Assembly: GCF_947258935.1 (NCBI RefSeq)
Contig: NZ_CAMYKH010000002.1
Coordinates: 1-64,000, forward strand
DNA length: 64,000 nt
DNA from: an uncultured Muriicola sp.
Lineage (GTDB): Bacteria > Bacteroidota > Bacteroidia > Flavobacteriales > Flavobacteriaceae
Direction: 5' to 3'
Numbering within the stretch: position 1 is the first letter of the stretch; each line of letters starts with the position of its first letter. Shown piece after piece: positions 26,507 to 32,632 of this stretch. Both the position numbers and the translations under genes were made by a program. Under the pieces are notes generated by a model. The model saw nothing but the letters and a program-made list of their open reading frames with translations. It was not told the DNA's origin and ran no database searches.

Positions 26507-27340
26507 TTATTTGCGAACAGTTTCTGATACAACCGGTGTCCCAAAGGCCCATTGTAAAAATGAAGGAAAAATCCTGGCCCAGGTGGGAAGATCGTGTTTT
26601 CCACCTTCCATCTCCACATAGGTTATCTTTTCAGGGGAGTATCCTTTTAACTGCAGTTCATTAATCAGGTCGGTAGTGTCCTCAATGGCATCTATGATCC
26701 CGCTGTGGTTCCTGTCTGCTTTTTCATCAAGGGTACCACATTGAAACCAAAAGGAAAGATGAGGTGAATAGGTTCCATTCTTTACCATGTCTAGCACAAT
26801 ACGGCTTCGGTCTTTCGGATCCTTTTTGGTGTAGGCCTTCTTACGCCACCAGAAAGAACCACTAAAAACAGCGGCTTTGGCAAAAAGATGTGGATGATTA
26901 AATACAGTGTCGAAAGCGGAAAGTCCGCCCAGGGACATACCGCAATAGACCCAGGCCTCTTTTTGATGAGCTACTTTGAATTCCTTTTTTAAGAAGGGGA
27001 TAAATTCTTCGGTAATAAATTTTGCATAGAGGTTGGCTTTTTCGCCTCTTCCCTTGTAATCCGCGGTACAGGCAGTGCCGTATTCGTGCATTCTGTTTTC
27101 ATTGGTTTCCAGGGCCACATAGATAAATGGGGTTATGCTATTGTCTGTAAAGGCAGTGCTAAGAATACCTTCTAATCCCATTTTCTTGTAATCTTGTCCG
27201 TCATTCATTAATAGAACAGGGAAGGGCATATCACTGGTTCTGTAGTTAGGCGGGGCTACCAGCCTGAAGCTTACTTTTCGCCCCAGAAAACGAGACGCAA
27301 AGCTTCCTTTTAGACTAATGAATTCAATATCAAAAACCAT
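26507..27340 (-). CDS. Esterase-family alpha/beta hydrolase (first of a divergent pair)
   Basis: A 277-aa cytoplasmic hydrolase of the esterase D type. The track starts at a TTG (27343), but the next codon is ATG (27340), which I prefer. Nucleophile Ser about 136 lies in YCGMSLGGLSAF, with the probable catalytic His in the C-terminal GGKHDLPTWARIFPSFLQW. Upstream strands read VSFRLVAPPNYRTSDMPFPVLLMNDGQDY. It faces the second esterase gene, sharing a 124-bp region, and resembles it in the S- and H-motif contexts (GxSxGG, HDxPxW). It probably belongs to the same functional unit. Confidence 0.85.
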   Translation of the reverse strand: MVFDIEFISLKGSFASRFLGRKVSFRLVAPPNYRTSDMPFPVLLMNDGQDYKKMGLEGILSTAFTDNSITPFIYVALETNENRMHEYGTACTADYKGRGEKANLYAKFITEEFIPFLKKEFKVAHQKEAWVYCGMSLGGLSAFDTVFNHPHLFAKAAVFSGSFWWRKKAYTKKDPKDRSRIVLDMVKNGTYSPHLSFWFQCGTLDEKADRNHSGIIDAIEDTTDLINELQLKGYSPEKITYVEMEGGKHDLPTWARIFPSFLQWAFGTPVVSETVRK

Positions 27341-27407
27341 CAAAATTATTTAAAAGCGCAAGTATAAGGATTCCGCTGATTTTAAGCGAGATGTATGCAA
27401 AAATAAA

Positions 27408-27464: not shown

Positions 27465-28175
27465 ATGGCATCTATTAAACATATTCAATACTATTCTAAC
27501 ATCTTAGGACGCAATATAAATCTCGAGATCACCGGGGACTGGGGATACCCTATTCTTATGTTTCCTTCTTCCTTCGGTAGCTTTACTCAAAACAATGATT
27601 TTGGGCTAAATGGATCCGTTATGAATTTTATAAATGAGGGGCGAATTAAATTGTATAATGTTGAGACCATAGACGGACTTTCCTTCTATGCGGAGAATAT
27701 GTCTTCTGAGGCAAAGATCCACAATTATGAGATGTATATGCAGTTTCTTAAGAACGAACTGATCCCTTTTATTCAGAATGAATGTAATACACACAGGATA
27801 GGTGTGGCAGGAGTGAGCTTCGGAGGATACCATGCCGGGAATACCGCTTTTAGGTTCCCAGATCTGGTTTCGCATTTGTTTGCACTTTCTGGTGTATTTA
27901 CTATTCGTAACTTTGTGCCACTTTCCGATGATATTCGGATCTATTACAATTGTCCAGATGAATTTATGCAAAACGAAGAAGCCTGGCGATATCAGCACAT
28001 GAACATTGTCTTAAGCACTTCAGATTGGGATAGTTGTAAGCCTAAGAACGAATATATGGCAGGGATACTTCAATCCAAAGGTATTCCCTATTGGTACGAT
28101 GAAAAAAAATGGATAGAACACGATTGGCCTTTATGGAAAATGGCATTTCCGGAATATATAGGCAAGTATTTTTAA
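27465..28175 (+). CDS. Esterase-family alpha/beta hydrolase, first gene of amidoligase operon
   Basis: A 236-aa putative esterase (PF00756-like). Ser118 lies in VAGVSFGGYHAGN and the likely catalytic His219 in WIEHDWPLWKMAF; PILMFPSSFGSF near residue 30 is the oxyanion region. There is no signal peptide. It heads a run of five genes with 19-66 bp gaps or overlaps. In that setting it may hydrolyse an ester or amide intermediate, or cleave the product. That role is inferred from context. Confidence 0.85.
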   Translation: MASIKHIQYYSNILGRNINLEITGDWGYPILMFPSSFGSFTQNNDFGLNGSVMNFINEGRIKLYNVETIDGLSFYAENMSSEAKIHNYEMYMQFLKNELIPFIQNECNTHRIGVAGVSFGGYHAGNTAFRFPDLVSHLFALSGVFTIRNFVPLSDDIRIYYNCPDEFMQNEEAWRYQHMNIVLSTSDWDSCKPKNEYMAGILQSKGIPYWYDEKKWIEHDWPLWKMAFPEYIGKYF

Positions 28176-28194
28176 ACCTAAAAAGTAAACAAAC

Positions 28195-29418
28195 ATGATA
28201 AAAAAAGTAGGAATTTTATTTGGAATGGAAGATACCTTTCCTTGGGCCTTTATTGACAAGGTAAATGAATTAGGGAACGGGCAGGTAATAGCAGAGCCTG
28301 TTTTAATTGATAAAGTACAGCAGGGAATAGATTACGGCTACCATGTGATCATAGATCGTATCTCACAAGAGGTGCCATTTTACAGATCCTATCTGAAAAA
28401 TGCGGCACTAATGGGTACTGCGGTGATCAATAACCCATTTTGGTGGAGTGCAGATGAGAAGTTCTTTAACAACTGCCTTTCGCTACAGGTGGGGGTTCCT
28501 GTGCCCAAAACCATCTTATTGCCTTCTAAAGAAAGGCCGGATGATACTACAGAAAAGTCATTTCGGAATTTAAAAGGTCCTTTAGATTGGGACTATATCT
28601 TTAACTATATCGGCTTTCCTGCCTATATGAAACCACATTCTGGTGGGGGTTGGAAAAGCGTTTATAAGGTAGAATCTCCGGAAGATCTTTTTGCAAAGCA
28701 TGAAGAGACAGGTCAGCTTGTGATGATGTTACAAGAAGAGATCGTATTCGATGATTATTACAGAGTGTACTGTCTGGGTCGGAAGTATGTGCATATCATG
28801 CCATATGAACCAAGGAACGAATTTCATCTGCGCTATGTTACAGAACCTAAGACAACAGGTGCCGAGCATCAGAAGTTGATGAAGACCATCCATGATTATA
28901 CCATTAAACTAAACGAGGCGCTGGGATATGATTTTAATACAGTAGAATTCGCGGTTAGAAATGGCATTCCATACGCTATAGATTTTTGTAATCCTGCTCC
29001 GGATGCAGATATTCACTCTGTAGGAGAAGGGAATTTTAAATGGATCGTAGAGCACGCAGCAAAATTTGCAATTGAAAAGGCGAATGCTTATTCTGAGAAG
29101 CAAAATAATAGTTCCTGGGGTACTTTCCTTAGGGAAGCGGTTGCTCCAACCAAGGCAAAAGCGCCAAAGATCTCATTGAAATCGGCTGCGCAAGTAAAGA
29201 GAACTAAGGTTAAGAAGGCCGCTGTAAAGGCAACACCTAAAAAGAAGACAACAACGAAAGCCACTGCAAAGGCAGCTCCAAAAAAAGCTGCTCCGGCCCG
29301 TAAGACCGCAGTAAAGCCAGCTCCTAAAAAAGCTGCTCCTGCTCGTAAGACCACAGCAAAGGCAGCTCCAAAAAAGGCGTCTCCGGCTCGCAAGACTACC
29401 CCTAAGAAGAAAAAGTAA
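28195..29418 (+). CDS. ATP-grasp ligase with histone H1-like Lys/Ala/Pro tail
   Basis: Residues 1-315 are an ATP-grasp fold of the RimK/glutathione-synthetase kind. AYMKPHSGGGWKSV (about 143-156) is the ATP-lysine and glycine-rich loop, LQEEIVFDDYYRVYCLG is the central strand pair, and YDFNTVEFAVRN...IDFCNPAPDA has acidic Mg/ATP residues Glu251, Asp263 and Asn266. Such enzymes join a carboxylate to an amine or thiol using ATP. Residues about 318-407 form a basic low-complexity tail with three exact 15-residue units (APKKAAPARKTAVK-like). Such tails bind nucleic acids in bacterial H1-like proteins; here it could also be a ligation target. It is the second gene of the operon. Confidence 0.85.
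   Translation: MIKKVGILFGMEDTFPWAFIDKVNELGNGQVIAEPVLIDKVQQGIDYGYHVIIDRISQEVPFYRSYLKNAALMGTAVINNPFWWSADEKFFNNCLSLQVGVPVPKTILLPSKERPDDTTEKSFRNLKGPLDWDYIFNYIGFPAYMKPHSGGGWKSVYKVESPEDLFAKHEETGQLVMMLQEEIVFDDYYRVYCLGRKYVHIMPYEPRNEFHLRYVTEPKTTGAEHQKLMKTIHDYTIKLNEALGYDFNTVEFAVRNGIPYAIDFCNPAPDADIHSVGEGNFKWIVEHAAKFAIEKANAYSEKQNNSSWGTFLREAVAPTKAKAPKISLKSAAQVKRTKVKKAAVKATPKKKTTTKATAKAAPKKAAPARKTAVKPAPKKAAPARKTTAKAAPKKASPARKTTPKKKK
29272..29406 (+). repeat. Three tandem 45-bp repeats encoding the H1-like tail
   Basis: Copies lie at 29272-29316, 29317-29361 and 29362-29406, each in frame and encoding A-P-K-K-A-x-P-A-R-K-T-x-x-K type units. They differ by several synonymous and some coding changes. The repeat explains the long antisense ORFs at 29088-29444, which are shadows. 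Confidence 0.95.
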
Positions 29419-29438
29419 GCTAACACAAAGCAAACGTT

Positions 29439-30536
29439 ATGCACAAGTTCACCCTGGGTATTGAAGAGGAGTTCCAGATCCTGGATAGTGAGAGCCTTAC
29501 ATTGGTTTCACAAATGTCTAAAATATTAGAAGACGGTAAAGTGTTCTTAAAGGAACGGATCAAGGAAGAAATGCACCTGTCCGTAGTGGAGATGGGGACC
29601 AATATTTGTGAAAATATCAATGAGGCCAGGGATGAGGTATCTTATCTCAGGCAACAAGTGATAGAATTGGCCGGGAAAGAAGGATTGAAGGTTGCTGCCG
29701 CAGGGACGCATCCTTTTTCTATCTGGAGTGAACAACCCATTACGCCTAACCCCCGCTACGATCAGCTTATTGCAGAAATGAAGGATGTAGCCAGGTCTAA
29801 CCTTATTTTTGGATTGCACGTTCACGTGGGGATCCCAAGCAGGGAAGAAGGACTGCAGATCATGAATGTGGCTCGTTATTTTCTGCCGCATTTGTATGCG
29901 CTTTCTACCAACTCCCCATTCTGGGAAGGAAGAGATACCGGGTTTAAATCATTTCGATCAAAGATCTTTGATAAATTCCCGCGTACGGGCATCCCTCCTT
30001 ATTTTGCAAGTGTTGCAGAGTATGACAAATTTGTGGATATACTTGTAAAGACAAATTGCATAGATAATGGGAAGAAGATCTGGTGGGATATTCGTTTACA
30101 TCCATTTTATCCAACTGTAGAATTCAGAGTATGCGACATGGTCATGACCGTGGATGAGGTTACCTGTATTGCTGCTTTGATGCAATGTATCATTGCTAAA
30201 TTGCACAGACTTCATCAGAAGAACCAGAGCTTTAGATCGTACAGACGCGTCCTTATCAATGAAAATAAATGGCGTGCAGCCCGTTGGGGTATAGAAGCAA
30301 AGCTGATCGATTTTGGTAAGGAAGAAGAAGTGCCCTTTAAGGTCTTGATCGCTGAACTACTCGACTTTGTAGAAGATGTAGTGGATGAATTGGGATGCCG
30401 AAATGAAGTTAATTACGTGTATCAAATGTTAGAACAAGGCTCTGGAGCAGACAGGCAACTCCAGGTGTATAATGATACCAATGACCTGAAAGAAGTTGTA
30501 AAATATATTGTGGAACAAACCTCCAAAGGGTTATAA
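29439..30536 (+). CDS. YbdK-like carboxylate-amine ligase (COG2170, GCS2 family)
   Basis: A 365-aa member of the glutamate-cysteine ligase type 2 superfamily. It has the N-terminal signature FTLGIEEEFQILD (acidic ATP/Mg-binding Glu9-11), then NLIFGLHVHVGIPSREEG with the family's HVHVG motif and WWDIRLHPFYPTVEFRVCDM near residue 205, plus a helical C-terminus. Such enzymes form gamma-glutamyl or related amide bonds; the E. coli relative YbdK has weak glutamate-cysteine ligase activity. The substrates here are unknown. The gene follows the ATP-grasp gene by 20 bp. Confidence 0.93.
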   Translation: MHKFTLGIEEEFQILDSESLTLVSQMSKILEDGKVFLKERIKEEMHLSVVEMGTNICENINEARDEVSYLRQQVIELAGKEGLKVAAAGTHPFSIWSEQPITPNPRYDQLIAEMKDVARSNLIFGLHVHVGIPSREEGLQIMNVARYFLPHLYALSTNSPFWEGRDTGFKSFRSKIFDKFPRTGIPPYFASVAEYDKFVDILVKTNCIDNGKKIWWDIRLHPFYPTVEFRVCDMVMTVDEVTCIAALMQCIIAKLHRLHQKNQSFRSYRRVLINENKWRAARWGIEAKLIDFGKEEEVPFKVLIAELLDFVEDVVDELGCRNEVNYVYQMLEQGSGADRQLQVYNDTNDLKEVVKYIVEQTSKGL

Positions 30537-30602
30537 TTGAGATAACAAGGCCCTTACCGGGGTACCATCACAATGCTTCCTAGTACGAAAAGAGAATAAT
30601 AC

Positions 30603-31439
30603 ATGTACCCTACCTATAAGATAGCCATCCTTGATATGAACGCAGGCCAGCCCAATGAAGGCATGCGCTGTATAAAAATGCTGGTGGAACAGTTTTTTGA
30701 GAATGAAGATGTAAAAGGCGATTATGAGATCTTTGATGTTCGCGTTAACTATCAACTTCCTGATCTGTTAGACTATGATATTTTTATTTCTTCCGGTGGT
30801 CCGGATTCCCCAAAACCTACCGGGGAAAAATGGGAGAATAAGTACTTTAAATTCCTAGACGAGATCTACGATCACAATCTATTGGAAGAGCGAAAAAAAT
30901 ACCTTTTCCTGATTTGTCATTCGTTCCAATTGGCGTGTTTGCACTGGAAACTGGCAAAAATTAAAAGAAGAAAGTCGACCGCTTTCGGGATCATGCCGGT
31001 ACACAAGACAAAGCGTGGAAAGAAGGAGTACCTTCTCGAAGGCTTGCAGAATCCTTTTTATGCGGTAGACTCAAGGGATTATCAGGTGGTTAAACCTAAA
31101 AAGAAGCGATTAAAAAGTTTGGGCTGTACCATTTTATGTAAGGAGAAAAAGCGCCCACATGTTCCATTGGAACGCGCTGTTATGGCTATTCGTTTTTCGA
31201 AGGAGATCTTTGGGGTACAATTTCATCCCGAAGCAGATTCGGAAGGGATGATGCGCTACTTTAAAAGAGCAGACAAGCGAGACCATATCATAAGACATCA
31301 TGGAAAAAGAAAGTACCATGATATGATGATCCATTTAGACGATGATGACAAGATCCTGAAGACAAACAGGACCATCATTCCCAGATTTTTGCAACAGGCA
31401 GCAGATGCCATTGACCATCAAACACCAATTTCTGTATGA
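30603..31439 (+). CDS. Class I glutamine amidotransferase-fold protein
   Basis: A 278-aa stand-alone GATase1 domain with an intact triad: Cys105 in FLICHSFQ, His208 and Glu210 in GVQFHPEAD. The N-terminal half reads YDIFISSGGPDSPKPTGE, the oxyanion loop of such domains. A C-terminal extension (about 225-278, KRDHIIRHHGKRKYHDMM) is basic and unusual. Free-standing members either supply ammonia from glutamine or act as gamma-glutamyl peptidases (PuuD-like). Its stop overlaps the start of the next gene (ATGA), which indicates translational coupling. Confidence 0.9.
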   Translation: MYPTYKIAILDMNAGQPNEGMRCIKMLVEQFFENEDVKGDYEIFDVRVNYQLPDLLDYDIFISSGGPDSPKPTGEKWENKYFKFLDEIYDHNLLEERKKYLFLICHSFQLACLHWKLAKIKRRKSTAFGIMPVHKTKRGKKEYLLEGLQNPFYAVDSRDYQVVKPKKKRLKSLGCTILCKEKKRPHVPLERAVMAIRFSKEIFGVQFHPEADSEGMMRYFKRADKRDHIIRHHGKRKYHDMMIHLDDDDKILKTNRTIIPRFLQQAADAIDHQTPISV

Positions 31440-32632
31440 TACCCAACATTAGGGACCAGTTTAACAAAGGATTTGAGCAGACGTATTACGAAAAACTTCA
31501 AAAAGAGGTAGCAGATACCTATGGTGAGCCCTGTGCCTTCAGGATCTCTGAATCGCCCGTTTTCTTTGATAAGGCGATGAAGAAAAAGGTGTTCGACGCC
31601 TGCGATGCCATCCTGGAGCAATTAGATGCCATCGAATATGAAACGGTAAAGCACCGTTTTATGCCCAAGCATTTGCATTCGCCATCCCATTCCGGGAACC
31701 CTCATTTTTTAGGGATCGATTTTGGCTTGTGTGAAGATGAAGCCGGTAATCTAAGCCCCCAGCTGATAGAACTTCAGGCCTTTCCTTCCCTTTTCTGCTA
31801 TCAGCCATTTTTAGCAAAAGCCTATTTAAAACATTACCCCAACCTTCCAAAAGAAGGGTTCCATTACTTTTTTGACGGACATACAGAAGATAGTTATCTG
31901 AAAATACTCAAGGAAGTAATTCTTGGGAAGGAAGATCCTGAGAATGTCATTTTAATGGAGATCTTTCCTGAGAAACAAAAGACGCGGATCGACTTTTGGG
32001 CTACAAAACACGCGCTGGGAATTGAAGTTGTTTGTATGACAAAGGTCATTAAGGAAGGGAAACAGTTATTTTACGAAAAGGACGGCCGCAAGATCAGGAT
32101 ACATCGCATTTATAATCGTGTAATTTTTGATGACCTGTACCAGTTTCAGGACCTGAAGACCAATTTTAATATTTTTGACGACCTGGAGGTTACCTGGATC
32201 ACCAATCCGGATTGGTTCTTTATGATCTCTAAGTGTATTATGCCCATGCTGTCTCATGAGAGCGTTCCGGAGTCCTATTATTTAGATGAGATCCCCGAAG
32301 ACATCGATCTTCATCAATATGTGCTAAAGCCTTTGTTCTCCTTTGCGGGGAAAGGTGTAAACCTGGAACCTACCTGGGAGATGCTCAATGAGATAAAGGA
32401 CCGCAAGAACTATATGCTTCAAAAAAAGGTAACCTATGCCTCGCTTATTAAGACCAATACAGACAAGAATTCTAAGGTAGAGTTACGGATCCTTTATGTT
32501 TGGAACGAAGAAGCCGGAAAACTAAGACCGGTCATTAACCTTACCAGGATGGGGAAAGGCGGACTTATAAATGTATCGCACCTCACCAATGATACATGGA
32601 TAGGGTCTTCAATCAGTTTTTTTGAGAATTAA
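31436..32632 (+). CDS. Circularly permuted ATP-grasp-like ligase (tentative)
   Basis: A 398-aa protein that I compare to glutathionylspermidine-synthase-like ATP-grasps on motif order. It has IDFGLCEDEAGNLSPQLIELQ early, YVLKPLFSFAGKGVNLEP (about 295-311) as a possible ATP loop, then VELRILYVWNEE and LTRMGKGGLINVSHLTNDTW at the C-terminus. Such ligases form amide bonds to polyamines or peptides. The match is by eye and could be wrong in detail, but conserved acidic, Lys and Gly-rich motifs support an ATP-dependent ligase. It is the last gene of the operon, overlapping the amidotransferase gene by 4 bp. Confidence 0.6.
   Translation: MIPNIRDQFNKGFEQTYYEKLQKEVADTYGEPCAFRISESPVFFDKAMKKKVFDACDAILEQLDAIEYETVKHRFMPKHLHSPSHSGNPHFLGIDFGLCEDEAGNLSPQLIELQAFPSLFCYQPFLAKAYLKHYPNLPKEGFHYFFDGHTEDSYLKILKEVILGKEDPENVILMEIFPEKQKTRIDFWATKHALGIEVVCMTKVIKEGKQLFYEKDGRKIRIHRIYNRVIFDDLYQFQDLKTNFNIFDDLEVTWITNPDWFFMISKCIMPMLSHESVPESYYLDEIPEDIDLHQYVLKPLFSFAGKGVNLEPTWEMLNEIKDRKNYMLQKKVTYASLIKTNTDKNSKVELRILYVWNEEAGKLRPVINLTRMGKGGLINVSHLTNDTWIGSSISFFEN

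Follow-up and report, generated by a model that had tools for sequence, protein, structure and literature searches.

A putative ATP-grasp ligase encoded in the window, the whole 64,000-nucleotide stretch of DNA analysed here, carries a histone H1-like C-terminal tail with a history of repeated gain or loss among its orthologs across Bacteroidota, and tail-less orthologs retain the same operon. The tail is probably an accessory feature and not part of the enzyme chemistry, and there is about an even prospect that it acts as a disordered polycationic tether to a cellular polyanion. The gene and its parts are as follows.

28195..29418, + strand: ATP-grasp ligase gene with a C-terminal Lys/Ala/Pro tail (open reading frame, 407 aa)
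28195..29127, + strand: enzyme core, residues 1-311, with the conserved WGTF motif at its end (alignments, AlphaFold)
29128..29415, + strand: H1-like Lys/Ala/Pro/Thr/Arg tail, residues 312-407 (composition, charge, low pLDDT)
29176..29205, + strand: conserved tail motif LKSAAQVKRT, residues 328-337 (present in related tails, low pN/pS)
29260..29394, + strand: three in-frame 45-bp (15-aa) tandem repeats (Tandem Repeats Finder, codon comparison)

The 96 residues of the tail include 34 Lys or Arg and a single Asp or Glu (net charge +33, pI 12), and they bring the net charge from -9 for the core alone to +24 for the whole protein. The open reading frame, this composition and charge, and the ATP-grasp-like fold of the core bear out an earlier note on this DNA, which had described a Lys/Ala/Pro/Arg/Thr tail resembling histone H1 on an ATP-grasp enzyme. 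The tail does lie at the 29149-29418 given there, but that start omits its first seven residues; likewise, the three 45-bp repeats said to encode the tail are present but account for only half of it (45 of 96 aa). Tandem Repeats Finder reports a 45-bp unit in 3.0 copies at 29261-29396, with 82% matches and 0 indels. In frame, the copies are KKAAPARK-type 15-mers (ATAKAAPKKAAPARK, TAVKPAPKKAAPARK and TTAKAAPKKASPARK) that differ from one another at 7-9 nucleotides, and codon comparison reveals that the nonsynonymous differences exchange Ala, Thr, Pro, Val and Ser. The tail is predicted to be intrinsically disordered and is without structure in the AlphaFold model, where pLDDT falls below 50 at residues 318-332 and 334-407 and is about 30 over the repeats. 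It thus displays the features by which tails of the AlgP, PhaF and HC2 kind are recognized, namely disorder, richness in Lys, Ala and Pro, and repeats. The tail sequence itself returned no Pfam or PDB matches; the Pfam HC2 (histone H1-like) model did not match the window's own tail, and it matched two related tails weakly, at E=1.5e-6 and 2.6e-4, neither of which reaches the curated cut-off. An assembly artefact is ruled out, as comparable tails occur in close orthologs from independently sequenced isolates of Muriicola marianensis (L022), Zeaxanthinibacter enoshimensis (L029) and Aureibaculum luteum (L028).

The enzyme core is modelled with a pLDDT of about 60-96, mostly 70-96. No Pfam family matches the window's ATP-grasp protein, and the NCBIfam model rimK_fam matches it weakly (E=5e-6). 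A Foldseek search with the core model retrieves D-Ala-D-Ala ligases, LysX/ArgX and graspetide ligases (E ~1e-12, 12-16% identity), with a TM-score by target of up to 0.74 against LysX/ArgX (5k2m), and the predicted fold of the core is a RimK/LysX/Ddl-like ATP-grasp. The residues expected to bind nucleotide and Mg in this fold (K89, K146, GGG150-152, E181, R190, E251, D263 and N266) are kept in at least 41 of 45 relatives, making the core very likely active. In the R2K clade of ATP-grasp enzymes the linker lysine is absent and a second Lys or Arg is found in the RAGNYA domain instead (PMC4431377). Among the relatives studied here, Lys or Arg occupies position 154 in 42 of 45, and 41 of 45 also retain K89, a candidate for the linker lysine; the Pfam model R2K_2 matches only below its cut-off (20.5 bits vs 26.2), and such sub-threshold R2K_2 matches (E<=0.01) are seen in 10 of the 45.

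The ATP-grasp gene belongs to a tight same-strand cluster at 27465-32632, comprised of an esterase, the ATP-grasp protein, a GCS2/YbdK ligase, a GATase-like protein and a permuted ATP-grasp. Its neighbours are listed below.

26507..27343, - strand: divergent second esterase (PF00756, E=5e-25)
27465..28175, + strand: esterase-like alpha/beta hydrolase, first gene of the operon (Pfam PF00756, E=6e-9)
29439..30536, + strand: YbdK/GCS2-type carboxylate-amine ligase (PF04107, E=4e-67; NF010039, 546 bits)
30603..31439, + strand: class I glutamine-amidotransferase-like protein (PF00117, E=3e-9; CHSFQ and HPE motifs)
31436..32632, + strand: circularly permuted ATP-grasp of the glutathione synthetase/YgiC type (AlphaFold, Foldseek)

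The cluster is apparently a Bacteroidota-wide, uncharacterised operon; a literature search found no description of it or of its product, which may reasonably be taken to be a peptide-like or polyamine-amide metabolite. Most orthologs have the esterase gene as the upstream neighbour of the ATP-grasp gene, and in the tailed clade of Flavobacteriaceae the divergent second esterase also keeps its upstream place. The CHSFQ and HPE motifs of the GATase-like protein both occur in 90 of 94 relatives. The protein encoded at 31436-32632 is modelled with a pLDDT of 86.8, and Foldseek matches the model (E about 1e-13 to 1e-11) to glutathione synthetase, GspS and YgiC, with PF03738/PF04174 found in some of its relatives. 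A carrier protein for a LysX-like reaction was considered and rejected, since the gaps between the operon genes (about 20-67 bp) are too short to hold its gene.

The orthologs of the ATP-grasp protein are spread across Bacteroidota, with matches in 110 of 297 phylum-level, 62 of 298 order-level and 19 of 201 family-level genomes, counts that include some weak paralog-level matches. With a tail defined by minima of 20 aa in length, 50% for Lys, Ala, Pro, Arg and Thr combined, and 20% for Lys or Arg, Lys-rich tails of 20-129 aa are present on 42 of the 110 cores compared. A tree of these cores requires at least 10 gains or losses, at least 7 being forced by well-supported branches; the tree is the product of a quick search in which some distant rows are long-branched, and the minimum change count lumps gains with losses. 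The 121-aa tail of locus L012, for instance, is nested among the tail-less L011 and L013-L017, and in the protein's own clade (Eudoraea, Muriicola, Zeaxanthinibacter, Maribacter, Pricia and Aureibaculum) all intact members are tailed, with lengths of 46-129 aa. Maribacter antarcticus (L032) was excluded from the tree because its ATP-grasp gene (L032:7001-8131) contains an internal stop; conserved core residues are also changed and the downstream tail is open; either the gene is decaying or the sequence contains an error. In Weeksellaceae (Chryseobacterium, Elizabethkingia, Kaistella and others), the protein ends 4-8 aa past the WGxF motif and the core is 76-80% identical, and the order of esterase, ATP-grasp, GCS2, GATase and second ligase is common to these tail-less proteins and to the tailed orthologs; the core reaction therefore cannot depend on the tail. 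This comparison of tail length and presence, proposed in the earlier note, thus yields tail-less orthologs in an identical operon context, the genomic half of what the note had named as counting against its reading. The many gains or losses of the tail suggest that it is probably an accessory anchor.

When the tails of eight close ortholog pairs are compared codon by codon, 194 differences are nonsynonymous and 147 synonymous, corresponding to a pN/pS of roughly 0.5 that is far above that of the core and below 1. The nonsynonymous changes remain within Lys, Arg, Ala, Pro, Thr, Ser, Val and Gly in 149 of 194 cases (77%), compared to an expected ~56% (binomial p about 1e-9, approximate); repeat alignment can inflate this figure, and the nearly equal-length pair L003/L022 agrees with it (16/20). 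Between the core and the repeats lies the motif LK[ST]A[AS][EQ]xKK (LKSAAQVKRT in the window), which is present in 16 of 18 related tails, located 16 residues after WGxF in nearly all of them, and occurs in shuffled tails at 0.0008 per tail. With synonymous sites saturated, its pN/pS is 0.22, compared to 0.73 for the preceding linker and 0.14 for the last 60 core codons, ratios by which the motif is judged to be under purifying selection. Given composition-preserving substitutions and a selected motif, the tail does not appear to drift freely: by these comparisons, one part is a real conserved element and the remainder is held to composition. Neither the motif nor the repeated gain and loss of the tail figured in the earlier note. 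A separate tail protein beginning at an internal TTG start at 29176 is rejected, because this Leu codon varies in orthologs (TTA, CTA, CTT, CTG). The motif pattern has 7 matches in the same genome vs 2 in a reversed control; of three that were opened, one, LKSAAEIT, sits at the extreme C-terminal end of an open frame of 343 residues and the others fall within short frames, and no second tailed protein was found in the genome by this pattern.

Such stretches are rare elsewhere, and the one found here is more than a chance occurrence. Within the window, the ATP-grasp protein is the only one of 59 ORFs with a Lys/Ala/Pro stretch, and a search of its own genome with the tail matched nothing but the protein itself. 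A 400-kb sample of that genome held weaker, acid-mixed stretches in 2 of 349 ORFs, ribosomal proteins S2 (plus helix-hairpin-helix; L208:14414-15604) and L17 (L197:13078-13707), whose Lys/Ala/Glu/Pro extensions mix acidic and basic residues. The collected loci contributed about 1,510 flanking ORFs, which together with the 400-kb sample served as the proteome background. The single real gene flagged in these loci besides the ATP-grasp encodes an RNase R-like exonuclease; all other flags fall on the ATP-grasp or on ORFs in GC-rich DNA that are probably spurious. A general Lys/Ala/Pro enrichment of the proteome is ruled out by the own-genome search and the 400-kb sample, and the near absence of these stretches from other ORFs makes the tail a property of the ATP-grasp family; the few other carriers handle RNA. 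A literature search for ATP-grasp enzymes with lysine-rich tails in Bacteroidetes gave no match.

In the favoured explanation, the core would catalyse formation of a peptide-like amide within a pathway for a small molecule or a peptide, alongside the co-transcribed GCS2-type ligase, the GATase-like protein and the glutathione-synthetase-like ligase, and the tail would bind a polyanion, most likely RNA or the ribosome or nucleoid DNA, possibly polyphosphate. Such binding would concentrate or position the enzyme, adding location or local concentration and not chemistry. Repeat slippage may gain or lose the tail with the operon unchanged, and in the tailed clade a specific partner may dock at the short motif that lies between the core and the repeats. 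The shift in net charge, the unstructured tail in the model, the proportion of tailed orthologs and the number of changes on the tree all favour a tether, as do the identity of the other carriers (RNase R-like, S2 and L17), the weak HC2 matches and the preserved composition. Against it, nearly any tail of this kind would be expected to bind polyanions, and such binding reveals little of what the tail is for; the operon points to small-molecule chemistry without an evident nucleic-acid step; and the Weeksellaceae manage without a tail. A bolder version, in which a pathway of several ligases is anchored to the ribosome or nucleoid by H1-like tails repeatedly acquired in Bacteroidota and a partner docks at the LK[ST]A motif, is quite improbable; if true, a convergently evolved polycationic tail would spatially organise the synthesis of a peptide-like metabolite.

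A possible, if doubtful, alternative to the tether is that the tail is a weakly constrained low-complexity extension with little or no function, produced by loss of the original stop and slippage of Lys/Ala/Pro codon repeats, and tolerated thereafter. The range of tail lengths within the tailed clade (46 to 129 aa), repeat units that differ by genome (15, 16, 18, 20-21, 45 and 72 bp), the many tail-less orthologs with the same operon, and a tail pN/pS well above that of the core would all fit this origin. Composition preserved beyond expectation does not, nor does a motif under apparent purifying selection, and tails recur in the ATP-grasp family yet are nearly absent from neighbouring genes. 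That motif, present in 16 of 18 relatives at a nearly constant position, also figures in a further proposal, which is unlikely: LK[ST]A would dock a pathway protein and the cationic tail would hold an acidic partner, an acidic carrier or a (poly)glutamyl product, with channelling or processivity between the operon ligases as the equally unlikely outcome. In its favour, the model of the core resembles LysX/ArgX, enzymes that work on an acidic carrier; the GCS2 protein and the second ligase are both acidic, each with a net charge of -10; and one operon holds several amide-forming enzymes. Against it, the operon has no carrier gene, and all of the partners are kept beside tail-less orthologs.

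The tail may also be itself a substrate, its lysines amide-linked in an auto- or cross-reaction by the ATP-grasp or by the GCS2 and permuted ATP-grasp ligases. In favour of this proposal, RimK-type ligases do modify proteins. Auto-modification has also been proposed for the R2K ATP-grasp CDC123 (PMC4431377), with the sub-threshold R2K_2 matches noted above in its favour. The proposal is nonetheless very improbable and the least likely of the rivals, as most sampled orthologs are tail-less and many of those have the same operon. Neither the sequence nor the length of the tail is conserved, and its terminal residue is Lys, unlike the acceptors of RimK and LysX, which end in Glu. The suggestion in the earlier note of the tail as an amide-bond target for neighbouring ligases is accordingly weakened, while its other suggestion, a tether to nucleic acid, is still the best reading, by analogy only; its interpretation is thus supported in part.

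The tether finds its closest parallels in tails on other proteins. In AlgP and PhaF, KPAA tails serve in DNA binding or in localisation to granules (PMC9239181). These Pseudomonas proteins likewise bear a long disordered C-terminal Lys/Ala/Pro tandem-repeat tail with variable repeats and H1-like composition, but they are DNA- or granule-associated organisers and non-enzymes, their unit is KPAA compared to KKAAPARK here, and homology to the ATP-grasp protein is limited to low complexity. Actinobacterial topoisomerase I resembles the present protein in being a catalytic enzyme whose C-terminal tail is Lys-rich and lineage-specific, and the Lys-repeat tails of TopA hold DNA, raising processivity (PMC7398561). 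There, the substrate is DNA itself and the tail helps catalysis directly, whereas the substrate of the ATP-grasp is presumably small. The LysX/ArgX, RimK, Ddl and graspetide ligases share the fold and the ATP-grasp residues of the core at only about 12-16% identity, and unlike the LysX and graspetide systems the operon has no LysW carrier or precursor peptide gene. To our knowledge, these ligase families are without such tails, and bacterial polycationic H1-like tails are known mainly from DNA-, RNA- or granule-binding proteins. The kind of appendage is already known, and it is the host protein, a conserved amide ligase, that is unusual. Repeated tails on one highly conserved, uncharacterised ligase, for which orthologs lacking a tail within the same operon serve as natural controls, constitute a clean comparative system in which to ask what polycationic tails do for a metabolic enzyme.

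These tails also draw attention to the Bacteroidota-wide operon of esterase, two ATP-grasps, GCS2 and GATase. The protein at 31436-32632 shares its predicted fold with the YgiC/glutathionylspermidine synthetase family at about 16% sequence identity, and YgiC and YjfC are reported, in work cited in PMC12568646, as peptide-polyamine ligases. In the more distant orthologs (L159, L162-L167), no operon partners were detected, and in L166 the ATP-grasp gene immediately precedes a gene resembling histidine ammonia-lyase. In some distant relatives (L173, and apparently loci of the L170 and L179-L181 type), a 471-aa CP_ATPgrasp_2 protein (L173:8643-10058; PF14403, checked in L173 only) occupies the usual place of GCS2 between the ATP-grasp and GATase genes.
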